Assembly (NCBI GenBank): GCA_001787535.1 | Contig: MFXP01000009.1 | Coordinates: forward strand, 1-64,000 | Source of the DNA: Candidatus Peribacteria bacterium RIFCSPHIGHO2_01_FULL_51_35 | GTDB taxonomy: Bacteria; Patescibacteriota; Gracilibacteria; Peribacterales; Peribacteraceae | Reading direction: 5' to 3' | Length of the DNA stretch: 64,000 bases | Shown here: in pieces, positions 1,419-49,742 of the stretch | Numbering within the stretch: the first letter of the stretch is position 1 | Layout of the letters: every line of letters begins with the position of its first letter | Program-made: the position numbers and the translations under genes | Notes under the pieces: generated by a model | The model's input: the letters and a program-made list of their open reading frames with translations, nothing else | What the model was told of the DNA's origin: nothing | Database searches by the model: none

Positions 1419-3104
1419 TTACAGAATCCTGCGTCTCTGGAAGAACAATTGTCCCGCACCCAGCAAGCTTGTAAGGCCAACGAAGATGGCATCCATGCCG
1501 GCACCCGTCGGCGGCATGCCCGTGAAGACGGGGAGGTTTGCGGCGACCACGCGTTCCGTAAGGGAGAGCGAAGCGATGTCCGCACCGCCGACGCTCACGA
1601 CGTTATTGAGACTGACGCCTTGCGGCACGTTCTTCGCGATCGTGACCGTGTAGTGGCGCTGCCACGATTCGCCGACTTCCAGGCGATCGATTTCCCAGAT
1701 CATTTCTCCGTTCGCATGCACCGCATCGTCCGCGCCGTCTTTCAGAGTCATGTAGCGCTCATCGAGGCGATCTTTCACCGTAAGGTTGTTCAGTACTTTG
1801 CCCGTCGTGTTGCGCAAGAGAATGGTGTAGGAGATGGTGTCACCCGGGCGCACTTCGCTGCGATCGGCCGTCTTCCGAAGGAGGACGCTGTTACTTTGCG
1901 GAGTCGGTCGGCTTGCGACGCCGCCTTCTTCCACCTGGACGAGAGCTGTGGCGCGATGTCCTGCGACGAAGACGCTGTTGATAAGGGTGATGCCGAGGGG
2001 CGTATCCTTGCGGAGCCTGCCCGTAACATGGAAGAGGCGTTTTCCGCCGGGGCTCACCGTCATGTCATCGAAGCGCACTTCATTGGCGCCCGTGAACGTT
2101 CCGCCTTCGCTGGCGGACACGAATTCCACGTACGGAGGCAACGCATTCGTAAGATTGACGTGCGTTGCAAGCGCATTGGAGCGGTTCGTAAGCGTGATGT
2201 TATAGGTCACTTCATCGCCCGGCAGTGCGGATTCTCTGTCTGCGCTGACACCGACATTGAAATCGGCGGGAACGGGACCTTGGTGAACAATGGTCGTGTC
2301 GGAAGCGCGCTCATTCACGCCACCGGTATTTGCGGAAACGCGAATGGCGTAGAAGCCGGCCGCATCATCATCAATAACACCGGAAATGGTGTAATCGGCG
2401 GACTGACCCGGCTGCAAGATATCATTGATCCAATCAATGGAACCGTTGCGGCGGAGATAGCCGTCGGATGCGGACAAGAACGAAACGACTTCCGGAAGGT
2501 TCACGCGCAGCGTGTAGGTGCGATCTTGCGTGCCAACGTTCTTCACCCGAATGGAGTACTGCACGGCATCCTTCGACGCAATGGTGTCTTTGCCGTCGGT
2601 GATGGTGACGAGAAGCGTGGATGGAACTGCGTTGCTATCGGTCACACGTGTCGTATCCGTTGCGCGAGCCACGCCATTCACCACCACTTCGGCGGTAAGA
2701 ATGTGATCCGTGGGAGCTCCCGTATGCACCTGGACATTCACGGTGAGCGAGCGAGACGAACTGCCGGAAACGGCAACATCGTCCCAAATGACTTCCGCTC
2801 CCACCAGCGATCCGCCGTTTGAGGCGCTCATAAAGTTCACAAACTGCGGCAAGCGCATTTTGACATCCGCCGTTTGCGAACTGCCGTCCGTGGTGCGGAG
2901 TGTGATGTTATAAATAAGTTCACCCCCGGCCCGCACGGTGTCTCTGCCATCGGCGACACTCACGCTTATGTTGGAAGACTGCGCGGACGTGGAAACGGCA
3001 GTCATGAGGATCATGGCAACCGGCACGAGGTGCACAAGTCCTGTGCGAAGGGCAGCAAGACTGTGGCGCTTCGTGGCCTTCGCTCGGAGAGGGAAGGAAG
3101 ACAT
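1419..3104 (-). CDS. Secreted DUF11-repeat surface protein with C-terminal sorting-like signal (MPPTG...TM...RRR)
   Basis: Signal peptide; repeated 'D.R..V.PGd.i.Y.I.l.N' DUF11-type modules; C-terminus MPPTGAGMDAIFVGLTSLLGAGQLFFQRRRIL. Confidence 0.8.
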   Translation of the reverse strand: MSSFPLRAKATKRHSLAALRTGLVHLVPVAMILMTAVSTSAQSSNISVSVADGRDTVRAGGELIYNITLRTTDGSSQTADVKMRLPQFVNFMSASNGGSLVGAEVIWDDVAVSGSSSRSLTVNVQVHTGAPTDHILTAEVVVNGVARATDTTRVTDSNAVPSTLLVTITDGKDTIASKDAVQYSIRVKNVGTQDRTYTLRVNLPEVVSFLSASDGYLRRNGSIDWINDILQPGQSADYTISGVIDDDAAGFYAIRVSANTGGVNERASDTTIVHQGPVPADFNVGVSADRESALPGDEVTYNITLTNRSNALATHVNLTNALPPYVEFVSASEGGTFTGANEVRFDDMTVSPGGKRLFHVTGRLRKDTPLGITLINSVFVAGHRATALVQVEEGGVASRPTPQSNSVLLRKTADRSEVRPGDTISYTILLRNTTGKVLNNLTVKDRLDERYMTLKDGADDAVHANGEMIWEIDRLEVGESWQRHYTVTIAKNVPQGVSLNNVVSVGGADIASLSLTERVVAANLPVFTGMPPTGAGMDAIFVGLTSLLGAGQLFFQRRRIL

Positions 3105-3221: not shown

Positions 3222-3298
3222 TGGTGGGCGCCAAGGGATTCGAACCCCTGACCTACGAGGTGTAAGCTCGTCGCTCTAACCAACTGAGCTAGGCGCCC
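3222..3298 (-). tRNA. tRNA-Val(TAC), CCA encoded
   Basis: Cloverleaf on the minus strand; anticodon loop CTTACAC; acceptor GGGCGCC/GGCGCCC + ACCA. Confidence 0.95.
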
Positions 3299-3354
3299 GT
3301 GTTCCAGGTAAAGCCAGTATAGACCATCTCGGAGCTCTTCTATATAATGATCGT

Positions 3355-3570
3355 ATGCAAACCATTCTTCTTACCGCAGAGATCGTAATCGGAGTGTTCC
3401 TCTCACTTTCCATCTTGCTCCAACACAGAGCTTCCGGCCTTTCCGCTACCTTTGGAGGAGCGGGTGCCACCTACGTGCAACGTCGCGGCGCAGAGCGTGT
3501 CATCTACCAAGCGAGTATTGCCCTAAGCATCGCGTTCTTCGCGATTGCCATCGCGATGTGGTACGTATAA
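3355..3570 (+). CDS. secG: Preprotein translocase subunit SecG
   Basis: 71 aa, two TM, ILLQHRASGLSATFGG..YVQRRGAE. Confidence 0.85.
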   Translation: MQTILLTAEIVIGVFLSLSILLQHRASGLSATFGGAGATYVQRRGAERVIYQASIALSIAFFAIAIAMWYV

Positions 3571-3713
3571 GACGAAGCGCATGTGCCAAGGTCGATGTGC
3601 CAAGTTTTTGCTGCCTGAATGCTTAATTTTCCTTAGCACTTGGCACCTGGCACTTCGCACTTTTCTTGTGTGATCCCCTTTCTTCCCACGGATCCTCCGA
3701 TAGAATAGGAAGG

Positions 3714-5927
3714 ATGGCACGACCTTTTCACATGCTTTTCGCCATGTCTAAACCGGAGCGATGGATTCTTTCCATCCTCGTACTTCTATTCGTTGTCAGC
3801 TTTACGGTGCTGCTGCGAAAATTTTACGTGGAGAACACTGCCTTGGTGCCTTCGGCAGGAGGCACATACATAGAAGGCTCCGTGGGAGAATTGCAGCAAC
3901 TGAACCCATGGTTCACCGTCACGAATGACGTGAATCGGGACATCATCTCCCTCGTCTTTGCGGGACTCCTGAAGTTTAACCCGCAAACGAAACAGATAGA
4001 AGAGGACCTCGCAACACTCTCGGTGGGCAACGACGGGACCATCTACACGGTCAAGCTCAAAGAGGATCTCTTCTGGCACGATTCCACAACCGAGAAGCCG
4101 CACCCTGTCATGGCAGATGACATCGTGTTTACGTACAGCGTGCTCAAAGATCCGGCGTTCCCGAATGATCTCCTCAAGCAAAATTACCGCGGTGTGGACA
4201 TCGAAAAGATTGATGACCGGACGGTGCGTTTTAAATTGGATGAACCCTACAGTTTCTTCGCCAGTAACTTAACGCTGGGGCTGCTGCCAAAAAATGCGTT
4301 CGATGGCATTCCCGTGAACAAACTGAACCAAACACTCGATTTTTCGCTCAAACCGATAGGGGCCGGGCCGTACAAACTCAAAAACATCGTGCAGACGGAA
4401 CTCTCCACGGAAGTCACGCTGGAGCGCTTTAAGCGCAATTTTCCGCCGGCCTACCGCCTGGAGCGCGTCGTCTTCCGCATCTTCCCGGATTATCAAACAC
4501 TGCTTGCGGATCTGGGAAATCTGGACGGCGTGCGCCTGGTGCCAAGAGACAAGAACGGCGATCCGATCGTGCCACGTCGCTTTGCGCCCATGACGTATTC
4601 GCTGCCGCAATACGTAGCGCTCTTCCTGAATTTGGAGCGACCGTTCCTGCAAGATCAAAAATTGAGACTGGCGTTGCAGCTCGGCACGGACAAGCAGCAG
4701 ATCGTGGATGCCGTCCGCGAGAAGAACATCGTGGATACTCCCCTGCTGGAAATCGATGTGTCGGACTGGCGCTACCAATTTGATCCGGATGCCGCGCAAG
4801 GTTCACTTTTCGTTTCCAACTGGCACCTGCCGGAAAAACTGCGTTTGCAGAAACTGTTGGAACACACGGAGTCGAACAACGTCGGCATCATGAAGATGAA
4901 GCCGATCGTGTTCCTGGCAACAGGCGCGGTGCTCACCCTTACGGGATCGCTCAAGGAGATAGGTTCCGGAGCGCTTGTGAACGGTATTGCCATCCAACAG
5001 CACCCGACATCATCCGGAGGATGGATCGTCGCACTGCCGACAAAAGGAACGGGCTCCCTTAAACTCGGTGACAATCTTATCCGCATCACACGGGCAAAGA
5101 AGAAAGGCGAGATCATCGATTCCTTCTACCTCTGGCGCACGGCAAACCCCGCGGAATTCAAGCGCGCCGAGGAAGAGCAGAGACTGGTGCAACTCTTCAT
5201 CGCATCACGCGATGAAACATTGCCGAAAGCCGAGCGCGTGACGGTGCAAGATTTCTTCCAGGAGAAAGGGATGCTCAGAATTCGAACGTCTGCGGACCCC
5301 GTGAGCGTGCGTCATAACGATGACGGCGATCTTCTCTCGCTCACGCTTCTTACGAGCCCCACGCCGGGAAAGTACAAAGAGATTGCGGAGATTCTTCGGA
5401 AACAATGGGCGGCCTTGGGCGTGCACGTGGGCGTGGAAGTGCCCGAGACCGAACAGGAATTCGAGGAGCGTCTCCTCAGTCGCGATTACGACATCCTTCT
5501 TTTCGGACAATCCCTCTTGGATAACTTGGACAGCTTCCCGTACTGGCACAGCAGCGGCATTCAAAAGCTCACGGGCAAGAGAGATGACCTTCGCCGCGAT
5601 GCGTATAACCTCTCCGGGTACACATCGTTCAAGGCGGATGCGCTCCTGGAAACCATCCGCAGCACACATAACGAGAAGGAGCGGACCGAAGCATTGAAGG
5701 AGCTCCGGGAGATCCTCAAGCAAGACGTCCCCGCTATTTTCCTGTACGCACCGACGTACACCTACGCGCACCAGCAGAGCATCCAAGGTATCACACTCGG
5801 CTCGCTTTCCTTGCATTCCGATCGCTTTCTATCACTCCATAATTGGTTCATTAAGCAAGACCGAGTTTTCCGCGCCGGAAAAGGCTGGCTTTCGTTCTTT
5901 CCGTGGCTTGGTTCCTTGATTCTGTAG
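3714..5927 (+). CDS. ABC transporter substrate-binding protein, family 5 (oligopeptide-binding type)
   Basis: GGTYIEGSVGELQQLNPWF...DIVFTYSVLKDPAF...GAGPYKL; ORF 3666..5927. Confidence 0.82.
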   Translation: MARPFHMLFAMSKPERWILSILVLLFVVSFTVLLRKFYVENTALVPSAGGTYIEGSVGELQQLNPWFTVTNDVNRDIISLVFAGLLKFNPQTKQIEEDLATLSVGNDGTIYTVKLKEDLFWHDSTTEKPHPVMADDIVFTYSVLKDPAFPNDLLKQNYRGVDIEKIDDRTVRFKLDEPYSFFASNLTLGLLPKNAFDGIPVNKLNQTLDFSLKPIGAGPYKLKNIVQTELSTEVTLERFKRNFPPAYRLERVVFRIFPDYQTLLADLGNLDGVRLVPRDKNGDPIVPRRFAPMTYSLPQYVALFLNLERPFLQDQKLRLALQLGTDKQQIVDAVREKNIVDTPLLEIDVSDWRYQFDPDAAQGSLFVSNWHLPEKLRLQKLLEHTESNNVGIMKMKPIVFLATGAVLTLTGSLKEIGSGALVNGIAIQQHPTSSGGWIVALPTKGTGSLKLGDNLIRITRAKKKGEIIDSFYLWRTANPAEFKRAEEEQRLVQLFIASRDETLPKAERVTVQDFFQEKGMLRIRTSADPVSVRHNDDGDLLSLTLLTSPTPGKYKEIAEILRKQWAALGVHVGVEVPETEQEFEERLLSRDYDILLFGQSLLDNLDSFPYWHSSGIQKLTGKRDDLRRDAYNLSGYTSFKADALLETIRSTHNEKERTEALKELREILKQDVPAIFLYAPTYTYAHQQSIQGITLGSLSLHSDRFLSLHNWFIKQDRVFRAGKGWLSFFPWLGSLIL

Positions 5928-6062
5928 AGGTAGTCGATGCGCAATCACTCCTTTTCTTTTGGCTTCTGTAAGAGCCGCCTGACTTCTGCGTCGTAAGCCA
6001 AGAAGCATTGACCTTCTGCTTCCGTTCGCGTAAGCTACTTTGGCTCTTTCGGGCAACCTCTC

Positions 6063-6506
6063 ATGGAAATTCTCCTCCTTCAAGATGTATCGGGCGTCGG
6101 AAAAAAGAACGATCTCTTGGTCGTTGGAGACGGTTATGCCTTGAACTACCTCCTTCCCCATAGGAAGGCTCTTGTTGCGACGCCAACCGTGCGCAAGCGC
6201 TACGCAGACCAAATCCGCAAGCGTGCGGAGGAGAAGGAACAGGAGCGCGCCCTGCGCGCCAATGCCGCAGCAGCGCTGGCAGGCAAGAGCGTCACCTTCA
6301 CCAAGAAAGTGACGAAGACCGGCAAGCTCTACGCAGCCATCAACGAACAGCAAATTTCCGAGGCCATGAAGACACAGCTTGGCGTGGAGTTCTCGCCCGA
6401 TGCCATCCAGATGGATGAGCACATCAAGGCCACCGGCAACTTCACGGTGAAAATAAAAATAGGAGACGGCCAGCAGGCTCTGGGTGTTGTTGTGAAGGCG
6501 GAGTAA
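6063..6506 (+). CDS. rplI: 50S ribosomal protein L9
   Basis: MEILLLQDVSGVGKKNDLLVVGDGYALNYLLPHRKAL. Confidence 0.95.
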   Translation: MEILLLQDVSGVGKKNDLLVVGDGYALNYLLPHRKALVATPTVRKRYADQIRKRAEEKEQERALRANAAAALAGKSVTFTKKVTKTGKLYAAINEQQISEAMKTQLGVEFSPDAIQMDEHIKATGNFTVKIKIGDGQQALGVVVKAE

Positions 6507-6512
6507 TTATTG

Positions 6513-6590
6513 TGGTGGGCCAGGATGGAGTTGAACCATCGACCGCCGGTTTATAAGTCCGGAGCTCTAACCAGGCTGAGCTACTGGCCC
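6513..6590 (-). tRNA. tRNA-Ile(TAT), CCA encoded
   Basis: Cloverleaf GGGCCAG...CTTATAA...CTGGCCCACCA on the minus strand. Confidence 0.85.
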
Positions 6591-6673
6591 AAGGTACTTC
6601 AAAGAACTTCTCGCATTGTGAACTACATTGGCTTTATTTTAAAGATGAGCGCCGCGTGCATTGATGTAACGCG

Positions 6674-6898
6674 TCACTTCGATCCCTCTGGATCCAGAAT
6701 TCCCGGAGGTACTATCTTTCCAAGCTTCTTTTTATTCTCACGCTGTATCGCTTCATACACTTCCTGTCGATGCACAGGAATATCCTGCGGTGCATTGACT
6801 CCTAAACGCACTTTATCGCCTCGAATATCGACAATTGTCACGACAATGTCATCGCCGATCATAATGGATTCATCCCGGTGTCTGCTGAGAACCAACAT
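6674..6898 (-). CDS. csrA: Carbon storage regulator CsrA
   Basis: MLVLSRHRDESIMIGDDIVVTIVDIRGDKVRLGVNAPQDIPVHRQEVYEAI. Confidence 0.96.
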   Translation of the reverse strand: MLVLSRHRDESIMIGDDIVVTIVDIRGDKVRLGVNAPQDIPVHRQEVYEAIQRENKKKLGKIVPPGILDPEGSK

Positions 6899-6947
6899 AG
6901 CGTAGCAACGATATTCTTACGGGGAAATAAGTCAAATTATTCACGTT

Positions 6948-7661
6948 CTACGGATCAATCTTCCCGAAATTCTGCACCCAATGATCGCCACTGAGGCCAA
7001 TGCCGATTTCGTCGAAATTTGGGCTGAGGATATTCGCTCTGTGCCGCGAGGAGTTCATCCAATTTTTCATGACTTCGGCGGGGGTGTTTTGTCCGTACGC
7101 TATGTTTTCCCCCGTCCAATATCCCCAGGCGCAGTTGCAAGGGGCGACGATGTAGCCCGCCGCTTTTATACGATCGAATGATTCCGCACCGTCGGGATTC
7201 CTGTGGCTGAAAAATCGTCGCTGAGCCATGTCCTCGGCATGCGATTGAGCCGCTTTGTGAAGCAACGGATGAAACCGGAGCAGGCCCAGCCCCGCTCGCG
7301 CACGCTCCGCATTCACCAACGTCAGCACTTCCTCGCGCACCGGACCGAAAACAGTCGCCGATGACGATGACACGGATGCGCCACCCGACGGCAGAAGAAA
7401 CGGCATGCGAGAAGGAGCGGAAGAAGGCGCCTTGCGCACGGGTTTTCGCACGATGATTTTTGCCGCACGCACGTCGCGTCTGGCATTGACCTGCGCAGTC
7501 AACGAAAGAGATGTTTTCTTATGCGGAGTTGCCGCATTCGCTCCTTCGCAGGGAAAGAAAAAAAGTGCGAACATGAAAAGAAGAATCGACGAATGTGCCT
7601 TCATGCATGCATGAAATCTTCCCATTACGAGTGCGTCAATGCATACGCGCAGGACTCGCAT
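6948..7661 (-). CDS. Secreted CAP/SCP-domain protein
   Basis: LTLVNAERARAGLGLLRFHPLLHKAAQSHAEDMAQRRFFSHRNPDG...GENIAYGQ...WMNSSRHRANILSPNFDEIGIG. Confidence 0.9.
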   Translation of the reverse strand: MRVLRVCIDALVMGRFHACMKAHSSILLFMFALFFFPCEGANAATPHKKTSLSLTAQVNARRDVRAAKIIVRKPVRKAPSSAPSRMPFLLPSGGASVSSSSATVFGPVREEVLTLVNAERARAGLGLLRFHPLLHKAAQSHAEDMAQRRFFSHRNPDGAESFDRIKAAGYIVAPCNCAWGYWTGENIAYGQNTPAEVMKNWMNSSRHRANILSPNFDEIGIGLSGDHWVQNFGKIDP

Positions 7662-7671
7662 TGACGGAAAT

Positions 7672-7911
7672 TTATTTGGGTGTTTTTTGCATCACTGTTC
7701 GTATGGTTTGACGGGCGTTGGCGTGGCGGCACGCATGCGCCCAGTCCGCTTTTATGAGGAGAGAACGCCCAAAAGCCAAGTCTACGATGTCTCCATCGTG
7801 AAGCAACGTATCGAACGAACACACTCGACCGTTTACTCGCGCAATTTTGAGGGATCCAAACCGCTTGCCAGCCGCCATGCAGGCGAAATCCAGAACGGAT
7901 GCGGGCTTTTT
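7672..7911 (-). pseudogene. Truncated 3' end (TGS-like C-terminus) of a RelA/SpoT-like gene, homologous to 17893..18132
   Basis: LKKPASVLDFACMAAGKRFGSLKIARVNGRV...HACRHANARQTIRTV matches the C-terminus of the 17893..19320 gene; homology stops just inside an upstream in-frame TGA. Confidence 0.85.
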
Positions 7912-7935
7912 GAGAAGTAATGCCGTTCATAGCTT

Positions 7936-8862
7936 TTAATCAAAAGGCATGAAGTATCCTGCCAGTGTTGCGTCGAAGCCGGAAGTCTCAATGCCTTCAG
8001 CCCTGATAATAGTCCCAATCCGAAGGAGATCACGGACTTCCTGCTGCCATTCCTGCCGAACTCGGGAAACCATTTCCTCGATTTGCTGGTCATTCATTGA
8101 ATACTGGTCGATGGTCTTCGGTTCTGGTTTCCTGTGTATTTTTCGAATGCGCCGTGAGATGGGCTCCGTAAAGTCTTCCAGTCCTGGGGTCGTACGACAA
8201 AAATCTTCCGCCAATTTCAATTTTGCAATGCGCTGCTCAATGGAGTCATCCCGAATACGGGCGACCACTGTCCGAAGGGTCAGAGAGACCCTGCGCGTTC
8301 TCAGAACACGGACTCCTTGGACCAGGTCGCTCTTCCGGGCTTTAATTCCATGTCCCCATTGTGTCCTCGCTTCAGCGTCCAAGATGAGCATACTGTTCGG
8401 CTCTAGCAATAGTGCGGTTTCTGGACTTCTTTGGACGCTTCCACGGTAAAAATCCATCATGCATTGCGACCCCAGACTGAGTGAAGCGACCGTCTCGCCA
8501 AAGCAGCGCTTGTCCCGGTGTCCGGAAATTCCCTGACCCGGAATATATTCATTCACGATCAGTTGGTCGGGTTCTTCGGTAAAATGCTTTTCCTTCACTA
8601 ACCGCTCTGCAATTTCTTTTCCCCACGAAGGAAGGGGTCCAAGGTAGTCACTCGGATTGATCGTATAATTGTCATAATCATAGCGCCAGCCATACTGCTG
8701 CACGCGACGAGTAAGTCCTGTCTCCCATGGCTGGCCGTCGATAACATTGAGGAGTTCATCATGATAGTGCTGAGAAATATACTGTGGCAGATATCGCAGC
8801 CCGGGGATTGCTGGAGGCGCCTCTCTTTCGAAGTCTCCGAAGAGTTCTTGTTGACGGGGCAT
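7936..8862 (-). CDS. AlkB-like 2-oxoglutarate/Fe(II) dioxygenase with ~110 aa C-terminal extension
   Basis: VNEYIPGQGISGHRDKRCFGETVASLSLGS...WGHGIKAR...RRVSLTLR: HxD, distal His, RxxxxxR; the ORF track start at 8916 is less likely. Confidence 0.85.
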   Translation of the reverse strand: MPRQQELFGDFEREAPPAIPGLRYLPQYISQHYHDELLNVIDGQPWETGLTRRVQQYGWRYDYDNYTINPSDYLGPLPSWGKEIAERLVKEKHFTEEPDQLIVNEYIPGQGISGHRDKRCFGETVASLSLGSQCMMDFYRGSVQRSPETALLLEPNSMLILDAEARTQWGHGIKARKSDLVQGVRVLRTRRVSLTLRTVVARIRDDSIEQRIAKLKLAEDFCRTTPGLEDFTEPISRRIRKIHRKPEPKTIDQYSMNDQQIEEMVSRVRQEWQQEVRDLLRIGTIIRAEGIETSGFDATLAGYFMPFD

Positions 8863-8944
8863 ACTGCGGGATAAAGGGATGAATATTCCTTCATGCCATA
8901 GCAAAAGGCAAGTCATTTCCCGATTTGAGGCCCAGGGCAGAATC

Positions 8945-8973
8945 TTGACAGTGCATGTTTATGCACTTATATT
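8945..8973 (+). promoter_or_regulatory. Sigma70-type promoter TTGACA-N17-TATATT with a palindromic operator in the spacer
   Basis: TTGACA at 8945-8950, TATATT at 8968-8973; AGTGCAT-GTTT-ATGCACT at 8950-8967. Confidence 0.75.
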
Positions 8974-9000
8974 CCCATACCTCTTCTTACTCATCTTCCC

Positions 9001-9771
9001 ATGTCCGAAGAAATTTCTAAAAAAGCACCTGAGTTCAGCACCGGAATCTCGAATACCGAGATCCTGATTGGCGGCATACATGATGCACTTATTGAACATA
9101 TTCGCGAGACGGTACAAAGGACAGGAAGCGTGGACATCAATCAAGCTGTGCATGATATTGTCGAAAGAAAAGTAGGTCCCGGCCGAGAAACAAAAGATCT
9201 CAAGGAAGCGCTGAAGAGAGATCTCCTTCAAAGAACACAGCAAACATTCGCTGCGAGACTGGGGGATGCAACACAGAAGGCGGCAGAAAATCCTACCGAT
9301 TCGGGGAAGATCGCTGAAAAGTATGGCATTGAACAACTGCGAAGAATGATCAAGATGCCTGGGGTGGATCCGGTCTCCATTCAATCGGTTGATGTGTATG
9401 GCCACCTCGATTCTGCATGCTTGAAAGCGAAATCGCTCGTCGGTGATAATGTCAAAAAGGGGGACATCTTGGTTCCTTCCTATCGGGGAAACCCCGCAAT
9501 TATCCGATTGGCGGATGGCACACAAGGTGCACACGTCCGCATCTTCGAAATCGGCATGGAAAAGAAAGGTCGGGTTTCACGCATGAAGCTCACGGAATGG
9601 CTGCGCAAAGTCTGCGGGTTTTCAAATGACGGAATTTTTGCGCTCAACGGTCAGACCCCTTATGAAGTTCCGACCCAAGGCGCTCCTCAAAGGATGCGCA
9701 TTTTCCAAGACGAGGAGGCGCAAGGCATGGACATGGTCAATATCCAGGACGGGCATTGGGCGAGGCCATAA
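9001..9771 (+). CDS. Hypothetical protein, first gene of the helicase-MTase operon
   Basis: 256 aa ORF behind a strong promoter; no family recognised. Confidence 0.75.
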   Translation: MSEEISKKAPEFSTGISNTEILIGGIHDALIEHIRETVQRTGSVDINQAVHDIVERKVGPGRETKDLKEALKRDLLQRTQQTFAARLGDATQKAAENPTDSGKIAEKYGIEQLRRMIKMPGVDPVSIQSVDVYGHLDSACLKAKSLVGDNVKKGDILVPSYRGNPAIIRLADGTQGAHVRIFEIGMEKKGRVSRMKLTEWLRKVCGFSNDGIFALNGQTPYEVPTQGAPQRMRIFQDEEAQGMDMVNIQDGHWARP

Positions 9772-9827
9772 TGGCCCGAAGCTTGTATTGACAAATACAT
9801 ACTTTAATGAATAGTATATAATACTGC

Positions 9828-12800
9828 ATGCCAGCAGAACCCCTGCCGCACGGGCAAACAGCTGATGTTGTGATCACTTCACGAGAGCTGATCCATGCCT
9901 TGAAAGTAGCCCGCGCCGAATTTGATGCACAGTACAAAACCGCCAAAATCAATCGAGGAAGGAGGGCGGAACATCTAGAATCCATCAGCACCCTTCACAT
10001 GGAATTGACTGAATTGCTTTCGGATACGAACATCGATTCCAAAGAAGCATCAGATCGCCTTTGTATACAGATCAACCAACGGCTTCGTCGAGTGATAAAC
10101 CGTCATGCAAACCAGAATCTCACGCACTGCATTAACGGAGCAAAAGACAAAGGTGCCTTAGCCCTTCAAAGCCATATTGATGCACTTCCATCTCTGGAAA
10201 GCAGAGCCTCCGCTGCTGAAAATCGTACTCCGATTCATGCAGCTTTACCTGTGATGCGAAATTCGATACAGACTGAGGGTTTGTCCACAGCGAGCTTGGA
10301 TACACATCGCACTGAAGTCGTATCCTCGACATTGAAGGAGGTTACGAATACCACGCCTATTAAAGAGCAAACGTCCGATGAACTACTGAAAGAATTGGAA
10401 TTGGCCGCTCAACCGATTCAAGATGGACAGAAGTATTCAGAATTAGCATACGAATTATACGATAGAATGCTCTGGAGTGTACTCCACTCTCATCGAAACC
10501 TGCTTCAGTGTGGGAAACTAGGTGACCACGAATTAATCGACGTGCGTAGGATAGTGAAAAATATCATGGACAGGCTTGCACTTGTTGGAAATGCTATTGC
10601 AACGGGGAAACTGGTCGTCGACAAAAAGAATTTGCTACGGGAAATCAAAGATAACGTCGAATCAATCACAGCCGGATTGTCATCCTCAAATAGTGAGCAA
10701 GGGAAATCGCGTGCCGTCGCCGATCATAGGGACAGAATCCTCCTTGAATTATGGGAAGCAACGAAGGAAGCCGTGGAAGACATCATCGAAGACGGTACAT
10801 TGCTTGCGGAGAATTCCCCTGCAGGAGCGCGGAAAAGCATCGATGAATTCTCGCCGGAGCATCAAGTTATCATTCGGGAAGAACTCGGCGCGACTCTAGA
10901 ACAAAGAAAATGGCCGACGGAGAGACAGATACACCGTACAATTCATCGATGCCTTGGGGGACGGACCGGCGTACGGGCAAGGGTATGGGGTGATTTGAGG
11001 GCCTCACTCCTGGAACTTTTTCACCAGGTGCGATACGTACCGGGTTTTGCCGAGAGAAATCTCATTTTACTCAAGAATAGGGTTCCGGCCGAACTGTCGC
11101 TGGGATTGCAAGAGAAACTTGCAAAGGAACATGAAATCATAGAAGCCCAATTCTCGCGGATCTTGAAAGCAAAGAATAGACTTCATATCGAAGATGTTGC
11201 TGTCATCGCTGAGATCATCGGTAGGGAAGTCTATGATGGGAATCGAATTTGGAAATCAAAAGGAACGAGCTCTGACTTTCGGGAATCAATCTATAGGCAG
11301 TGGAGGAAATTTGCCGTGAAAAATGGACTCCACAGGCATGAACGAGCAGACGATAGAATGATTCACACTGACGACCCACAGGTGCATCGCATTATCGACG
11401 AGGAACTCATGCCACTGATCGAAGCATCGCAATGGCCTACGGAACGGGAGATCCAATTCACCATTATGCGCATTGAACGTGAATGCCTCGAAGGATGCTT
11501 TGTAGGAAACTTTCCAGGAATACGCTCGTATCTCATTGATCTATTCCGTAAATCGGGAATTCGAGAGCGGCTGTACCTGGCATCGCGCGATCCCCATTCA
11601 GAACCATTTTATATAGGAAAATACAAAGGGCCGGCGGAACTCTCCAGGGCACTCTACACCTCACTGCAAAAAGAACATGGTGAGGTGAGATTATTTCTCG
11701 GGAACTTGGTTCCCACACAATCTGCTTTGACGCAAGATGACATGGAATTGCTTCGCCACACGGTATGGATCCATGTCTATGAGAAAAAAGCCATTTGGAA
11801 GAGCGGAACCGGACGCCCAGATATTGTAAAGCAAGATAATGATTTCGATGTTTTCGTACAACGGCTCTGGGACCGGCTAAAAAAAGATCACGAAACCTAT
11901 GTGGCTGAACGGAGGGAAAGGATGAAAAGCGAAGCGGAAGTTTTGGCATCTCGACAAACACGTACGGCACCTGCTCCTCCTTCGAGGCTCATCGACACGG
12001 AACAACCGATGGAGCTTTCCTTGGCGGAAAAAGCGCCACGAACACAGGAACAGCTACGTGGGAATCCCGTACAGGCTTTGAGCTACTTATGTGCGCTCCA
12101 CATCGCAGAAATTCTTTTACGCTCCTTCGCCGTTTCGTTAATGAAGAAAAGGACCATCCACGTAAGGCTTCCGGACGGAATGACTATGCCGCTGCGCAAC
12201 AGCATCGAATTTGATACTCACTTGCTCTATCACCTGGAAGGGGTGATCAAGACGTACATCGAACAACAGATGCTCGCGAAAGCGACAGACAATGGTACGC
12301 CGGCAGAAAAACTTCGTGCCTACAGCGCTCAGCATCCTGAAGCGGCAATCGAATTGACACAGGCAGTGATTTCCTCATGCCAATCGTATCCGTGCTGCCA
12401 AGGATGTCCGGAGGTTTTGGACGCGCTCCTGACCGACGTGCCACACATGGATGCGTTGCTCGATAAAGTTCCGGAATGTGATTGGAATCTTCCGGGAACA
12501 CTTCGATCGAAAGCATACGCTTCCATTCTCACTGGCCGCGATCCCATGATGCCATTCCTCTCGGAGGAAAGAGAAATAGTCGATACCTTTTTGCGAGCCA
12601 AAGGCATGGCGGCGAGAATCCAAAGAGGTGAATCGCCCGAGCTCCTCATGAATGAACTCGACGCCCAAGGCGCGTTCAAGGAGATCGCCAACATGATTAA
12701 TGCCGAATATCACGCAAATGACGACTTCCGCTCATCGAGGATGGTGCAAGAGGTTGCGCAGACACTATTCGATACGTATGGCGTTCCTACAAGGCCGGAT

Positions 12801-14057
12801 GCATCCGATGTGATGTATGTGATACATGAAGAATCTTTACCGCCAGAAACGATCGAGGCAATGGAAGAGACCATTCGCTGGGTAAAGGACATTCCGATGC
12901 CCGGTGCCAGTGGCCACATGAGCATGTGGGCAATGATCAAGGCACATGCGGATGTCCTCGAAAAATTCCTGGACTCAGGTGGACGTTTCATCACCCGCGA
13001 CCGTGCACTGAACTCCCTCGCTATGGTGAATGCCTGGCGCGAAAAATTAATCGACGTTCGAAGTTACAAAGGCGGTCAACGCCTGCGGCTTAGGCAAGGC
13101 ACGGATCCGGAAGACCTGGTCCGTTCGATTGTGTCTGGGATGATCAATGGCCCGAATGTGAAATTTGGACCCGACATCGATGAAGATCCTTTTTATTTTG
13201 CTCTGCAGAACTATAAGGGAATCAAAGGTGGGATCAAAACAATACGTTCGGCAATCGAAGGAATTTGTCTTGCGGAACGGGAATTGTCGAATATAGAAAT
13301 AGAAATTGGGGAAATCAGCTCACAAATTTCAGCACTGCAGAATTCCATTGCTGAGATCTCAGAACAGGATAGAAACGATCTTCCTCGCGTTACGAATGAA
13401 GAATTGCAGACTAATCTCGTTGATTTCCTTTCTCGACACACCGCACTGTACCTCCATGCGAAAGTCGCTTTGGAGCAACAAAGCGCGCTCATAAAGGCAA
13501 AGGAGGCCGTTTCTGCGAGCAAAAATGAGTTCGACAGCAAGGTCGCAGGAATATCAACGAACCAAACAAAACCAGAGGATCTGCCTGAAGTTGCGGCTCG
13601 CATGCAGTCCGATCTGCGAGTACTGCAAGAACTCGAAAAGCGTCTTTCAACCGAAGGATGCGTTTCAATGCAATATTCAGATTATGAAACAATTATGAGG
13701 GTCTACCAATCAGTACGCAGTGCGGGTGAGGATATCTCCAACCATGCTTTCGAAAATATTACTTCACCTATGCAAGGTGAAACGGTGGATATCGCGAAAC
13801 TAGAAACTGAAGGTACACTCCTGGTAGAGCGATGCCGCATTCAGAAAATGCGCAACGAAATGGACATGTTACAGAAAAACGTTGCGATTCTCACGGCGCA
13901 AAAGCAATCCATTGAAGAAGGAAGCTTCCCTGCGCTCAGGGGAGAAGTTGCCAGGAGAGCCTCACTGGAAGAACAATTACACGCTGCGGAAGAACGTCTA
14001 CGGGAAATCCTTGACCATATGAACGTACCACCTCTTCTGCGCAATTCCCATGATTGA
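9828..14057 (+). CDS. Large 1409 aa protein of unknown function, with internal duplication and C-terminal coiled-coil-like region
   Basis: Uninterrupted ORF; 8-nt overlap with the downstream gene; Cys cluster CQSYPCCQGC. Confidence 0.85.
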   Translation: MPAEPLPHGQTADVVITSRELIHALKVARAEFDAQYKTAKINRGRRAEHLESISTLHMELTELLSDTNIDSKEASDRLCIQINQRLRRVINRHANQNLTHCINGAKDKGALALQSHIDALPSLESRASAAENRTPIHAALPVMRNSIQTEGLSTASLDTHRTEVVSSTLKEVTNTTPIKEQTSDELLKELELAAQPIQDGQKYSELAYELYDRMLWSVLHSHRNLLQCGKLGDHELIDVRRIVKNIMDRLALVGNAIATGKLVVDKKNLLREIKDNVESITAGLSSSNSEQGKSRAVADHRDRILLELWEATKEAVEDIIEDGTLLAENSPAGARKSIDEFSPEHQVIIREELGATLEQRKWPTERQIHRTIHRCLGGRTGVRARVWGDLRASLLELFHQVRYVPGFAERNLILLKNRVPAELSLGLQEKLAKEHEIIEAQFSRILKAKNRLHIEDVAVIAEIIGREVYDGNRIWKSKGTSSDFRESIYRQWRKFAVKNGLHRHERADDRMIHTDDPQVHRIIDEELMPLIEASQWPTEREIQFTIMRIERECLEGCFVGNFPGIRSYLIDLFRKSGIRERLYLASRDPHSEPFYIGKYKGPAELSRALYTSLQKEHGEVRLFLGNLVPTQSALTQDDMELLRHTVWIHVYEKKAIWKSGTGRPDIVKQDNDFDVFVQRLWDRLKKDHETYVAERRERMKSEAEVLASRQTRTAPAPPSRLIDTEQPMELSLAEKAPRTQEQLRGNPVQALSYLCALHIAEILLRSFAVSLMKKRTIHVRLPDGMTMPLRNSIEFDTHLLYHLEGVIKTYIEQQMLAKATDNGTPAEKLRAYSAQHPEAAIELTQAVISSCQSYPCCQGCPEVLDALLTDVPHMDALLDKVPECDWNLPGTLRSKAYASILTGRDPMMPFLSEEREIVDTFLRAKGMAARIQRGESPELLMNELDAQGAFKEIANMINAEYHANDDFRSSRMVQEVAQTLFDTYGVPTRPDASDVMYVIHEESLPPETIEAMEETIRWVKDIPMPGASGHMSMWAMIKAHADVLEKFLDSGGRFITRDRALNSLAMVNAWREKLIDVRSYKGGQRLRLRQGTDPEDLVRSIVSGMINGPNVKFGPDIDEDPFYFALQNYKGIKGGIKTIRSAIEGICLAERELSNIEIEIGEISSQISALQNSIAEISEQDRNDLPRVTNEELQTNLVDFLSRHTALYLHAKVALEQQSALIKAKEAVSASKNEFDSKVAGISTNQTKPEDLPEVAARMQSDLRVLQELEKRLSTEGCVSMQYSDYETIMRVYQSVRSAGEDISNHAFENITSPMQGETVDIAKLETEGTLLVERCRIQKMRNEMDMLQKNVAILTAQKQSIEEGSFPALRGEVARRASLEEQLHAAEERLREILDHMNVPPLLRNSHD

Positions 14058-17000
14058 AAAGGAGCTCATCCGAAGGCAAATCCTCCATGCTACACATGAA
14101 ATTCAAGAAGCAGAGAAATCGAACTGCCCGGACGATCTTGCGATGCGAGCCGTGCGAGTATTTAACCGAATTCGTGGAGTCATTTTTGGCGCTCGCGATT
14201 CCATTGAGCATGTCTCGGAACTTTTTGACATCTGCGAATTGCTCGAAAATGACCCGGATGTTTCATCGTTAGTAGAACCCATTGCATCACTCATTCACGA
14301 CCTCCGCACGGAGGCATTGAATGATGTCCTCCAAGAACATTATGAAAATAAATTGCATGCCCTTGGGCATTTGGAAGTGGAGGAAAGCGAAAAAATCGAA
14401 AGCGAGAGAGCTCTTGCAGTCCTGATGACCCAACTGCTGCCAGCGCTCAAGCGGGAGAAAGAGCCCGTGGACATCCTCTGGCTGCAAGAGAATCATAATG
14501 CATTTTATCGTCGTATTCGCATTCTTCTGGAAGCAATAAATCCATCCGAGCCTGCGGCGGATTGGAGCATCGTTCAGAACATGCTTCCAAAAAACGTCCG
14601 GAATAAGTTTATCCCAAGCGCCGATGCTGATGAACAGGAAAAGCTGAAAGCATTCGTCAATGCGCATTGGCACATCCTGCAGCAAATGGGACCCGAACAT
14701 TTGGCTTCCTACCTCGCACGCCATGGACTTGTAAAAGGCGGCTTTGCCCAAGCACTGCAGGGCATCTCACCATATTTGGAACAATGTACGCGTGTGCAGC
14801 CTACTCCGCAGGATGTGCGACGATATCCGCCTGCACTCCTCGACGACCCGGATGAGCAAACATTGCTCTTCCTAAACATGCGAAACTACGCATATCAACG
14901 CCTCCAAGCAACGGGAATCGACAATAATGACCCTGAGGTGTTTTCGGCGTTATTTGCCCATATCCAACAAGACCTTCACGGGATGATCCCTGAGCCATCG
15001 GAGGCTTTCGATACGTCACCCTTCGTCTCGGTACATGAGAGAACCGTGTCCTTCTATGAAAAAGTATTCGACGTATCCATACCACAGCGCTTACGGGACA
15101 GCATACGGGTAAAGGGCAAGGACCACCGGTTTCCGTCGCTGCGACAACGCATCGCAATGGTGGACTGTGAAGAGCCGGGCACGAGACGCCTCATTCTGTT
15201 CCCACAAGGGACAGGTAAATCGGAGACGTTGTTCCTGATAAAAGAACACACGAAAGCGAAGAAAATGCTTCTCGTTTGCACAGCTGAAATGTTGAAAGAA
15301 ATCCCAGGAAGAATACGGCAGGACGAATGCGAAGAGGGAAGGGTTCCCTGTTATAAGAATGATGAAGAGCCAACCATCGGCATCATTCAGGCTGGGATCA
15401 CGTTCGAAGAACTTCGGAAAGCTCTGGACCAGGAAGTTGTCGCTGTCTCATACACGATGCTGGGAGAAAATTCTGGTTTCGAAGGCGAAACTGTCTTAGA
15501 ACATATCATTGGGCACTCGGATCCTGTGCGTGGCCATTTTGACATGCTCGGAATCGACGAATGCCAGCTCGCGAGCAACGAAAAAGGACAGACTACCCAA
15601 TCGGTGTTCCGGTTGGTCGACGAAATCCCCGATTTGTATGACAAGGGACGGATCATCATGACCTCGGCAACTCCGTTCCCCGGATGGCTCGACGACATGG
15701 TTCCTGCAATGCGTATCCTCGATCGCGAACATTATCGTGATGTCCATTCGGTTCACGCCGCAGTCACCACGTACGACCCACAAGAATTACGCGTAGCACT
15801 GATGCGCGGAATTCTGAATCTTGACCCTCCATTCGATTGGGAGCGGTATGTGAAACCCGCATATTATAAGTTGTCTGAAGGGCAAAAGAGAAAATACCAA
15901 GAAATATTGGAAGAACCTATGGAGCACACGCAAAAAATGCTGCAGTTACAATTGTGTTGCCAAAATCCCACGCTTTTACCTGGGAATTGCGACTCGATTG
16001 AGAATGGCTTCTATGAAAAACTAGCGGAAATGCTTCGGGATGACCTGACAAAGCATCATGCTATATTCTTGCTCCAAGATAAGTATAAACAGGGCATCGC
16101 TCGACCTCACGAAAAGAGGCCTGATGATACATCGACGATCGTTGAATTCTTGAAAAAGGATTTCCCCAAGGTCACATTTGAAATTATCGACGGTGATACG
16201 AGCCAAACTGCACGCCAAAACATTGTTGCCAGGGCAAAGGAAATGGAGCAGCAGAAAAATGGTGAGAGAATGGTTATTTACGTTCATTTGGGAACGACAA
16301 CGCTCGTTGGACAGAACCTCTCTTTTTCTTGCCGGTTGATCGTCCTGAATGGATTCCCGTGGAACATCACCGAACTCTCACAAGGCATCGCTCGATTTGC
16401 TCGGGAAGGGAACGAACCAAATGTCTCAGTAAGCGTCATGCAGCCGGATCCGAGCGAAGAAACTCTCTACCTTGGCATTGAACAGCGCGCACGCCATAAG
16501 TTCGCAGCCATTCAGCGTGCCACTTATGGAGGCACTGTCGCACAACATGATATCGAACATCTTGGTGAAGGTGATATCGGTGATATCGTCAGTGGCAAGA
16601 AACGCTACAAGTATGGTTCGGACATCCTCCGGCACCTTCGGACCTCGATGCAAGAAGTCGCTCTGTGGTTCAAGCCTCAGAGAGACGCAAAACATGGAAG
16701 TAAGGAGTGGAGGCAATTCCTGGAAGAGAAAGGCGAAGTTCTGGCACTGAAGTACACTCGAAAATGGAAGAAGACGACACAATGGAATAATGCCAAATTC
16801 AATGCAGGTTTGATCGAGCACCTTGAAACCGGGGGCATCATTCAGGGTGACCAATATCTCGATGCAGGATGCGGTCCGTTTTCCCTTACACTTGCTCTCG
16901 GTCCCGTGGCGGTCGGCTCCAACGTGCAAAAAAAGCGCATCATCGATAATCTCGATTTGAACCCGCATATGTTCAGGGTGGGAAGAAGGATGCTCTTAGA

Positions 17001-17832
17001 TCAGGAGATCGAAAACGTTCCCCAATGCTTCCACGCTTCGATAACGGACATGTCGCAATGCGTTCCCGATGGGAAATATTCCTTGGTGAATTGCGCCCTG
17101 GCCCTGGATTTAGTCGGAAGGGAGGAAGGAAAGGAGGATGGGATTCTCGGCAATGAAATGGTCCAAACGCTCTGCGAATTTAACCGGGCACTCGTTTTTA
17201 ATGACCAGCATGCCGGAGTTCTCCTCATCACATTGAATGACCGAACAATGAGTTCGGAGGAATTAACAAATATCTGTGAGCAGTTGCCACTCTTCGGATT
17301 CGAGGTTCTCCAGCTATACACGGGTGTTGGCCAATCGATTGACACCGGTACAAAGAATGTCTTCCAAAACCTGGCAATAGCATGCAAAAAAACTTCGCAG
17401 ATCGACCACAATTTGCTGGCAACCCAACTCGATACGACGCGATTCACAATGACTCCTCAGTCCAAAGTAACAAAGTCTAGGGGAACAGGAGTACAAAGTG
17501 GAGGCCGTCAAAATCGCTTTGGAGGAACAGAGCATTCCCACTTTCAAATCAACGGCTTGGATATCGATTGTGTAACGACGACGGGCGAAAAAATCGCAAC
17601 ATTCGTCAGACTTCGAGAGAAGGTTCAGATCGCGAGACAAATTTGTGAGAAATACAAGAGCCTTACCGGCGATAAGGCGCGTGCTGAACTGAAGAAGAAT
17701 GGAATGGAATATTTCGGCATGCCGACGGTGGGCTTGTGCGTTATCATTCAAAAAAGCAATGGACCACTCGTCGTGGACATCATGAATCCGGTATGGGATA
17801 TGAATGACGAAACGAAGGAAAACAGCCAGTAG
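14050..17832 (+). CDS. SNF2-like superfamily 2 helicase fused to a C-terminal SAM-dependent methyltransferase
   Basis: PQGTGKS (I), DECQ (II), SAT (III), VGQNLSFSCRLIVLNGFPWNITELSQGIARFAR (V/VI); MTase motif I YLDAGCGPFSLTLALG, LDLNP, NCALALDLVG. Confidence 0.85.
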   Translation: MIEKELIRRQILHATHEIQEAEKSNCPDDLAMRAVRVFNRIRGVIFGARDSIEHVSELFDICELLENDPDVSSLVEPIASLIHDLRTEALNDVLQEHYENKLHALGHLEVEESEKIESERALAVLMTQLLPALKREKEPVDILWLQENHNAFYRRIRILLEAINPSEPAADWSIVQNMLPKNVRNKFIPSADADEQEKLKAFVNAHWHILQQMGPEHLASYLARHGLVKGGFAQALQGISPYLEQCTRVQPTPQDVRRYPPALLDDPDEQTLLFLNMRNYAYQRLQATGIDNNDPEVFSALFAHIQQDLHGMIPEPSEAFDTSPFVSVHERTVSFYEKVFDVSIPQRLRDSIRVKGKDHRFPSLRQRIAMVDCEEPGTRRLILFPQGTGKSETLFLIKEHTKAKKMLLVCTAEMLKEIPGRIRQDECEEGRVPCYKNDEEPTIGIIQAGITFEELRKALDQEVVAVSYTMLGENSGFEGETVLEHIIGHSDPVRGHFDMLGIDECQLASNEKGQTTQSVFRLVDEIPDLYDKGRIIMTSATPFPGWLDDMVPAMRILDREHYRDVHSVHAAVTTYDPQELRVALMRGILNLDPPFDWERYVKPAYYKLSEGQKRKYQEILEEPMEHTQKMLQLQLCCQNPTLLPGNCDSIENGFYEKLAEMLRDDLTKHHAIFLLQDKYKQGIARPHEKRPDDTSTIVEFLKKDFPKVTFEIIDGDTSQTARQNIVARAKEMEQQKNGERMVIYVHLGTTTLVGQNLSFSCRLIVLNGFPWNITELSQGIARFAREGNEPNVSVSVMQPDPSEETLYLGIEQRARHKFAAIQRATYGGTVAQHDIEHLGEGDIGDIVSGKKRYKYGSDILRHLRTSMQEVALWFKPQRDAKHGSKEWRQFLEEKGEVLALKYTRKWKKTTQWNNAKFNAGLIEHLETGGIIQGDQYLDAGCGPFSLTLALGPVAVGSNVQKKRIIDNLDLNPHMFRVGRRMLLDQEIENVPQCFHASITDMSQCVPDGKYSLVNCALALDLVGREEGKEDGILGNEMVQTLCEFNRALVFNDQHAGVLLITLNDRTMSSEELTNICEQLPLFGFEVLQLYTGVGQSIDTGTKNVFQNLAIACKKTSQIDHNLLATQLDTTRFTMTPQSKVTKSRGTGVQSGGRQNRFGGTEHSHFQINGLDIDCVTTTGEKIATFVRLREKVQIARQICEKYKSLTGDKARAELKKNGMEYFGMPTVGLCVIIQKSNGPLVVDIMNPVWDMNDETKENSQ

Positions 17833-17892
17833 CTTCGCCAAATCCTCGACACACCGGGCCGCCAACCTCGATGGTTTTAAGAATGTCGGGTG

Positions 17893-19320
17893 TCATGCGC
17901 CCGCTTTTTGCGTCACTGTCCGTATTGTTTGACGGGCGCTGGCATGCCGGCAAGCGTGCACCCAGTCCGGTTTTATGAGGAAGGAACGACCGAAAGAGAG
18001 ATCCACGATGTCACCGTCGTGGAGGAGTGCATCGAAGGATGTGATCCGCCCGTTCACACGGGCAATTTTGAGCGCCCCGAACCGTTTTCCCGCCGCCATG
18101 CAGGCAAAATCGAGCACCGAAGCGGGCTTTTTCAAGTGATACAAGCGATTTTTTTCGTCGAAAATGATGAGGTGATCTTCGCGGAAGTACGTGCGCAGCG
18201 CCGCTTCGAATTCTTTGGGGGACCTGGCTTCGGTGCGCAGGCTCTCCAGGTTGCGGAACAGATTCACTCTGGCGGACGGACTGCGGAGTGCGTACTTCCA
18301 ATCTTTGTACGAACCGTGATCCAAACTTCCTTCTTCGCACTCGCGGTGCATTTCTTCGGTGCGGATTTGGATTTCGATGGGTTGCTCGGTAACGCCGGGC
18401 AGCGGATAGACGACGGTGTGGATGGAGCGGTAGCCGTTTTCCTTGGGTGCCCCGATGTAGTCTTTGAGTTTTCCGGGGATGGGATGCATGCGCGCATGCA
18501 CGACGCCCAGTGCTCGGTAGCAATCGCCTCGCGTGGGAACAACGATGCGGAGCGCCAAGCGATCGGTGAGTTCCCCGAATGTTCGCCGCTTCACGACCAT
18601 CTTTCGATACGTGGAATAGAGTCCTTTGATGCGACCGTCCAACGTGCCGGTGATGTCATTCTGCTTGAGAAGTTTCTCCAGATATTTCTGCGTATGGGAG
18701 AGACTTGCGTGGTCCAATTTCGCCGCAGCGGCGAAGGATTTTTGCAGGTGGTTCGCCGTGCGCGGATAGAGATGCAAAAAGCACGCGTCTTCCATTTCGT
18801 AGCGCCATTTTTGGAATCCCAACCGTCCCGCAATGGCCGTATACATATGCAGTGTTTCGCGTGCGATCTGCTTTTGGATGACGTGATCGAACCTGCGCAG
18901 ATGCCGAATGTCATTCACGCGGTGCGCCATGCGCAGGAACATCATGCGCGGTTCATGGACGAAGGCATCCAGCACTCTGTCCAGATCATGCGTGTCGGCA
19001 TCGATGTGCAAGCGCCTGAGCTCATGCATGCTTTTCACAAGTGACCGCTCCTCCTCATTCAATGGAGATTGTGCCAAAAATTCTTCGCCTTTCGGATGCA
19101 CCAGAAGATCATGAAGAATGGCAATGGAAAGCAAGGAAGCATCCTGCGTGAGTTCGCTTAAGACGCCTCCCACTTCGCATCCGTGCGCTGCATAGTTTTC
19201 CCCCGTGCGCCTTTTTCTGTCAGACAGATATTCATGTGCAAACGCACAGGCAGTGCGAAGACGCGACCGCGTGCCCAAGTCAGAAATATTTTTCTGCAGA
19301 GGACGGCACGCATCACTCAT
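17893..19320 (-). CDS. RelA/SpoT-like (p)ppGpp synthetase/hydrolase (HD + RelA + TGS-like)
   Basis: AILHDLL, HRVNDIRHLR, ...KWRYEMED, DITGTLDGRIKGLYSTYRKM, DRLALRIVV, KENGYRSIHT; C-terminal TGS-like region; start set at MSDACRP. Confidence 0.88.
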   Translation of the reverse strand: MSDACRPLQKNISDLGTRSRLRTACAFAHEYLSDRKRRTGENYAAHGCEVGGVLSELTQDASLLSIAILHDLLVHPKGEEFLAQSPLNEEERSLVKSMHELRRLHIDADTHDLDRVLDAFVHEPRMMFLRMAHRVNDIRHLRRFDHVIQKQIARETLHMYTAIAGRLGFQKWRYEMEDACFLHLYPRTANHLQKSFAAAAKLDHASLSHTQKYLEKLLKQNDITGTLDGRIKGLYSTYRKMVVKRRTFGELTDRLALRIVVPTRGDCYRALGVVHARMHPIPGKLKDYIGAPKENGYRSIHTVVYPLPGVTEQPIEIQIRTEEMHRECEEGSLDHGSYKDWKYALRSPSARVNLFRNLESLRTEARSPKEFEAALRTYFREDHLIIFDEKNRLYHLKKPASVLDFACMAAGKRFGALKIARVNGRITSFDALLHDGDIVDLSFGRSFLIKPDWVHACRHASARQTIRTVTQKAGA

Positions 19321-19404
19321 GCATGCAGTATACGAGAGATTGAAAAAAATCCACATGAAAATTTTCCGCTGGATTTTATAAACCAAATGCGTACAATACT
19401 CACC

Positions 19405-19692
19405 ATGGCAAAAACATCCAAGCCATGGCATCAGATCCTTGCACCAGTTGCACTCGTGGTCATTCTTTTCTGTGTCTGGATATGGAAATCCGGGGCAATG
19501 AAGTTCGGGTGCGATACGGGGGGCGAATCCAAAATCCTCAATAACGGTGTCATTGTGTTCAGTTGTGCAGAACCTCGTTTTATCGTGAGTTGTGATGAAC
19601 GCACTCTGTCCTTCTTCAACCAGCATTATATGTGCAGTTCCTTTGATGGAACAAAATATGCGGTCTACGGACAGTACGCAAAGACGCAATAA
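19405..19692 (+). CDS. Small membrane-anchored hypothetical protein
   Basis: One TM segment; TACAAT box 7 nt upstream of ATG. Confidence 0.5.
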   Translation: MAKTSKPWHQILAPVALVVILFCVWIWKSGAMKFGCDTGGESKILNNGVIVFSCAEPRFIVSCDERTLSFFNQHYMCSSFDGTKYAVYGQYAKTQ

Positions 19693-19737
19693 TTCGGATG
19701 AAGAATCGAAGGTAATACCCCGCTTTGATGGAATTGG

Positions 19738-19818
19738 TTTGTAGAGCCGCGCGATTCGCGCGGCTCTACAAACGGACAAACTATTATATGAGTGACTTGC
19801 GATTCGCGCGTCTCTACG
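19738..19818. repeat. GTAGAG-type palindromic repeat plus adjacent half unit
   Basis: TTTGTAGAGCCGCGCGATTCGCGCGGCTCTACAAAC, then GCGATTCGCGCGTCTCTACGG. Confidence 0.85.
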
Positions 19819-49425: not shown

Positions 49426-49742
49426 AATTTGACAAAAAATCGTAAAACACACACTATTTTTTTGAATCTGATCAATGAAATTGAACAACGAGTTTTAATC
49501 ATCCAAAAGGGCTAAACCCTATTACAAAACATGTAAGTCTTCGTTAAAGCTGCTCTGTGGCATTTTTGACGACATTTTTCGAGCTATTCTGTGCAAAATG
49601 TCCTAAAATCTTTGGCTTCAAGACGCCTTAAAGTGCTTATTCACTTCAAGGATTGACAAATGCCATTAAGGTAGTAGAGTTAAACCATTTATCGTCACCT
49701 CAACTACGCTCTCCAACCCTTATTTTTCTCTCCCACCGTCGT

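Follow-up and report, generated by a model that had tools for sequence, protein, structure and literature searches.

What kind of system is encoded by a compact set of four genes, flanked mostly by housekeeping genes, in the genome of Candidatus Peribacteria bacterium RIFCSPHIGHO2_01_FULL_51_35? The window analysed here is a 64-kb stretch of DNA from this 1.2-Mb, 99% complete, 18-contig assembly. Within it, a minus-strand gene for a 326-aa AlkB-like 2OG-Fe(II) dioxygenase (7936–8916) diverges from a plus-strand operon encoding a 256-aa orphan protein (9001–9771), a 1409-aa giant protein (9828–14057) and a 1260-aa protein in which an SNF2-type translocase is joined to a methyltransferase (MTase) fold (14050–17832). 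ORF calls place all four genes as an earlier note on this DNA had described them, including the 8-nt overlap between the last two. The 256-aa and 1409-aa proteins, for which that note had recognised no family, have no credible match in Pfam, PADLOC or PHROGs (an NCBIfam scan covered the helicase family only), and no relative of the 256-aa protein was detected in the loci compared. An Rfam scan of the island found nothing, and Pfam detects no nuclease domain in the four proteins. PADLOC revealed no clear defence-island context among ten neighbouring genes, where a mads-type match and one weak Cas3 match were taken as non-specific. Elsewhere in the window, two probable surface proteins consist largely of DUF11 repeats, one of 2306 aa (49653–56573, plus strand) and one of 561 aa (1419–3104, minus strand).

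Sequence analysis of the 1260-aa protein identifies it as an SNF2-type SF2 enzyme with a separate C-terminal class I (Rossmann) MTase, as had been proposed. The approximate helicase core (15127–16659, plus strand) contains motifs I (GTGKS), II (DECQ), III (SAT) and VI (QGIARFAREG). Pfam reports Helicase_C at 8e-5 and Methyltransf_31 at 0.007, while a profile of the family matches SNF2/Rad54 structures best (2e-16 for 1z63), with RapA and SNF2 remodellers among its matches. Every one of the 17 members compared has recognisable motifs II, III and VI, and 16 have the Walker-A GxGK; the remote member L116 reads GSYKT instead. The approximate MTase fold (16837–17409, plus strand) carries a class I SAM-dependent motif I (YLDAGCG) and the acidic residue after strand 2 (NLDLN). 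Its motif IV, NCALALDL, is of the Methyltransf_11/UbiE/Rrp8 type, as it is in all 17 members, and the matches lie in the Methyltransf_31, Methyltransf_11, UbiE and Rrp8-type (Methyltransf_8) families. The motif IV of DNA amino- or C5-MTases (DPPY/NPPY or PCQ; [DNS]PP[YFW]) is absent from 17/17 members, so that DNA-base modification finds no support in the sequence. Motif I is lost in three relatives (L011, L014 and L015); the domain is thus not catalytic throughout the family, and catalysis has probably been lost in part of it. Modification or epigenetic marking of DNA, among the possibilities raised in the earlier note, is as a likely activity not supported by these motifs.

The edges of the island bear a signature of insertion. 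A direct repeat that had been missed in the earlier note brackets it: a relA/spoT-type gene (17893–19779, minus strand, start codon uncertain) lies to the right, and the last 228 nt of this intact gene (17905–18132, minus strand) recur with 79% identity at the outer left edge (7684–7911, minus strand), where the copy has its own stop just beyond. Blastn gives the repeat a sharp boundary at 7911, which is 25 nt past the stop codon of alkB; an apparent continuation of relA homology into the AlkB C-terminus (7681–8187) was rejected as a spurious gapped extension. Most differences between the copies fall on third codon positions (9, 4 and 36 at positions one, two and three), and the codons that differ comprise 32 synonymous and 10 non-synonymous ones. 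This bias indicates that both copies evolved as working gene ends, and one of them probably came from another lineage. The GC3 of all four island genes (0.49–0.53) is below that of most of the window. A terminator-like hairpin lies 3' of the operon (17887–17903, plus strand); hairpins of this kind are no more numerous in the region than expected by chance.

A comparable arrangement occurs in L053, a distant, TGA-recoded Gracilibacteria relative. Its helicase-MTase gene lies directly 3' of cysE and has on its other side a 142-nt copy of the cysE 3' end at 93% identity. The cysE-tail copies, at 2883–3024 and 7146–7287, stand on either side of a solo helicase-MTase gene, and this is an independent second case of the same insertion signature. 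A check of 513 kb yielded only three dispersed direct repeats at E 1e-10, of which two flank members of the helicase-MTase family. The third, in L014 (4647–5108 and 7204–7659), consists of tandem paralogous small genes with 64% protein identity. In L115, a solo helicase-MTase gene (5620–11659) starts 1 nt after the ligA stop codon, with no copy of the ligA tail on its far side. Of the features by which integrative genomic islands are recognised, flanking direct repeats and a displaced 3' end of the target gene are present in the window, and an integrase or transposase is lacking; nor is there a structural or conjugation gene among the four. The relA orthologues of relatives sit in other genera without synteny, and no empty junction was found among them. 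A footprint of this kind could have been left by a circle that integrated through a single crossover, by an integrase supplied in trans, or by homology-facilitated illegitimate recombination, the last described in PMC3240628.

The distribution of the family is patchy. A profile search found strong members in 18 of the 360 class genomes, a count that leaves out matches to the helicase core alone. A phylum-wide sample of 389 genomes, to which a second profile was also applied, added few members; four helicase hits from the phylum search, in G407, G424, G591 and at a second place in G441, match the helicase core only and were left out of the family. Collections of phages, plasmids and viral contigs contained no relatives of the window protein beyond generic helicase cores. 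Some members of the class read TGA as sense. Host family f1 does not form one group on the helicase-MTase gene tree, a scatter that fits transfer or old paralogy.

Within the window's clade the gene does not travel alone. In 11/11 loci, the window included, the same-strand gene immediately upstream encodes a protein of 675–2060 aa that belongs to no known family, two of these giants being truncated where a contig stops. The spacing to the helicase-MTase gene ranges from −41 to +102 nt; the background for proteins of at least 600 aa is 10% of the other genes in these loci. For one giant subfamily, the genomes that have it (7 of 352) are precisely those that carry its partner. Upstream pairing and co-occurrence together define the giant and the helicase-MTase as a unit, one that recurs and is not a conserved single-copy feature of the relatives. 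The large genes beside the solo members L115 and L053 are excluded from the giants, since they are ligA and a gene for a class I tRNA synthetase. In L055, a separate gene for 286 aa (10759–11619), which sits between a 2145-aa giant and the helicase-MTase gene, encodes what in the window is the N-terminal domain of the 1260-aa protein.

The giants themselves evolve fast. That of the window contains two tandem repeats of about 190 aa (10911–11345, residues ~362–506, and 11433–11912, residues ~536–695; plus strand) that are 32% identical at E 2.9e-9. With the giants of L050 and L051 it shares weak similarity, confined to the C-terminal part, and profile comparison with the larger giant subfamily gave nothing significant. 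AlphaFold models reached a pLDDT of 38 for the giant, with only a hint of a mostly helical protein, and of 44 for the helicase-MTase, low values explained by the use of only three sequences. In solo relatives, tandem repeats are found at the N-terminus of the motor protein itself. L053 has three 88-aa repeats (3247–4035) at 84% identity and L052 has nearly identical repeats of about 118 aa (1–1353), both recent duplications; L115 has four of about 78 aa with weak HTH matches (E 0.005–0.02). A variable repeat module, present as part of the motor in some loci and as the upstream giant in others, may therefore be the recognition part of the system, and we infer the same role for the giant in the window.

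The divergent gene was correctly described as AlkB-like: PF13532 matches at E 3e-24, the domain spans residues 74–215, and the HxD...H...R residues are present (HRD, WGHGI, RVSLTLR). Among solved structures, it is closest to the corresponding domains of human ALKBH8 (1e-21) and ALKBH6 (1e-13). AlkB exceeds the Pfam cut-off in only 6 of the 360 class genomes and adjoins the helicase-MTase module in two of these six, the window and L017. The AlkB proteins of these two loci are 49% identical to each other, as against 30–37% to the others, whereas their helicase-MTases share only ~22% identity; AlkB thus gives the impression of a mobile accessory outside the core. Two other AlkB genes of the class (L110, 9076–9741; L112, 2480–3103) adjoin two glycosyltransferase genes in place of the module, identified by Pfam in L110 and as close homologues in L112. 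With AlkB an occasional accessory and the 256-aa protein without a detectable relative in the compared loci, the description of the island as a four-gene system overstates its core.

Expression of the operon may be controlled from the 84-nt gap that separates it from alkB. Of the promoter-like sites in the region the best, TTGACA-17-TATATT (8945–8973, plus strand; a consensus match only), lies in this gap, and its spacer holds a perfect, operator-like palindrome, GTGCAT-GTTT-ATGCAC (8951–8966), that is unique in the 64 kb. Promoter and palindrome together suggest that the operon is under repression.

Does the module belong to a described system? The island is no described PADLOC system, in keeping with the earlier proposal that it is uncharacterised. 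Like BREX with its BrxHI/BrxHII, the island sets an SNF2-type helicase beside very large proteins, and weak BrxH matches (E 1e-3) were obtained, but PglZ, BrxC and BrxX/PglX have no match among the four proteins. DISARM, through DrmD and DrmMI/MII, likewise combines an SNF2-like helicase with an MTase, and one family member has a weak DrmD match; in contrast to DISARM, the island has no DUF1998 protein (DrmB), DrmA or PLD protein (DrmC) and no DNA-MTase motif. These absences, including those of PglZ, BrxC, DUF1998 and PLD noted earlier, hold for all four proteins in both PADLOC and Pfam. The SNF2-type helicase DpdE of the Dpd system is matched at 1e-10 by a single member of the family, which is not that of the window, yet no DpdA-type transglycosylase or other Dpd gene was matched in the island. 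Type I/III restriction-modification combines a nuclease with an N6A MTase, and the island has neither a nuclease domain nor the corresponding motif IV. In ALKBH8 an AlkB domain is joined to a Trm9-like MTase, and the island does place an ALKBH8-like AlkB beside a Methyltransf_11-like domain; here, however, the two are in separate genes, the MTase is fused to an SNF2 motor, and AlkB accompanies two members only. The polyvalent proteins, with phage P1 DarB, resemble the island in having an SNF2-clade motor and an MTase in one polypeptide, very large partners and a mobile context (PMC5512222). By definition, however, the MTase of their dyad is a DNA adenine MTase that precedes the SNF2 module (PMC5512222), while that of the window is C-terminal and lacks the amino-MTase motif IV. 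The island is also without metallopeptidase, ArdC, ART or LPD domains, and polyvalent proteins are encoded by phages or conjugative elements, whereas the family is absent from the phage and plasmid collections searched. By these comparisons the module is somewhat like the helicase-MTase conflict systems but lacks the defining components of BREX, DISARM, type I/III restriction-modification and DarB/polyvalent proteins. A claim to a categorically new system would need a function.

We propose that the island reached the 3' end of relA by horizontal transfer, as a cassette that serves in genetic conflict, probably in a defence-like capacity, through a giant recognition or scaffold protein and an SNF2 translocase; taken as a whole, this explanation has in our judgement an even chance of being right. 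It builds on direct observations, the insertion signature, the gene pairing, the patchy family and the domain content, from which we infer the conflict role, the part played by the giant, the mechanism of the motor and all substrates. The core would be a two-gene complex of the 1409-aa giant, probably its target-recognition or scaffold subunit, and an SNF2-type double-strand DNA translocase with a class I MTase-fold domain. Release of the operator-controlled promoter at 8945 would allow expression, and giant and motor, produced together from the overlapping genes, would assemble. The giant would bind foreign nucleic acid, or a complex sitting on it, whereupon the SNF2 motor would travel along the DNA and strip or remodel the bound material. 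The MTase domain might methylate a substrate other than DNA bases, such as RNA or protein, or might act as a SAM sensor, roles suggested by its erosion in relatives, and AlkB, as an optional accessory, might repair or hydroxylate alkylated nucleic acid. Counted against this explanation are the lack of a nuclease domain, of defence-island context and of an integrase, the mostly housekeeping flanks, the loss of motif I in L011, L014 and L015, and the undetected relation between the window giant and the larger subfamily.

The same evidence can be read in other ways. The module could be a regulatory or repair factor, a RapA-like SNF2 recycler or remodeller with an RNA- or ribosome-modifying MTase, kept as an accessory trait and joined by an ALKBH8-like AlkB acting on RNA. 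RapA and SNF2 remodellers among the profile matches, the UbiE/Rrp8-like MTase and the proximity of AlkB to ALKBH8, which in humans acts on tRNA, would all suit this reading, which we nonetheless regard as rather unlikely: a cellular maintenance factor would not be expected to show patchy spread, an insertion signature, a fast-evolving giant partner and duplicated repeats. We are similarly doubtful that the island is the remnant of a phage or conjugative element whose anti-restriction or establishment module, akin to DarB and the polyvalent proteins, shields or remodels the DNA of that element as it enters. A fusion of SNF2 and MTase with very large partners is typical of such elements (PMC5512222), the DNA helicase family phrog_62 of PHROGs matches at 4e-16 (2e-40 for L017), and the insertion signature suits this reading. 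The relatives in phage, plasmid and viral-contig collections are only generic helicase cores, though, the island contains no structural, integrase or conjugation gene, and its MTase is not of the DNA adenine type and lies on the other side of the helicase.

Two further readings seem far less probable. One holds that the repeated relA tail was left by an ancient tandem duplication of relA, or arose in the assembly, and that the four genes are mere neighbours; it draws on the fragmentation of the assembly into 18 contigs and on a relA comparison limited to relatives from other genera, in which no empty site was seen. An identity of 79% with third-position-biased differences is not an assembly error, the cysE case in L053 is independent, and the pairing of giant and motor recurs in every clade locus, which together make this account very improbable. 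It would be a long shot, too, that the giant guides the SNF2 motor to foreign nucleic acid, where the Rrp8/UbiE-like MTase adds a blocking methyl group while AlkB clears the same mark from the host, a nuclease-free defence by reversible alkylation with its own antidote.

The CPR/Patescibacteria make up a large share of bacterial diversity, and little has been catalogued on how they handle foreign DNA. The patchy but recurrent combination of a giant repeat protein with an SNF2-MTase motor provides a definable new module to test in these organisms, and the recently duplicated, motor-fused repeats of the solo relatives make the idea of a recognition module testable. The mode of insertion seen here at the relA and cysE tails, behind housekeeping genes, with duplication of the tail and without an integrase, may apply to other CPR islands as well.
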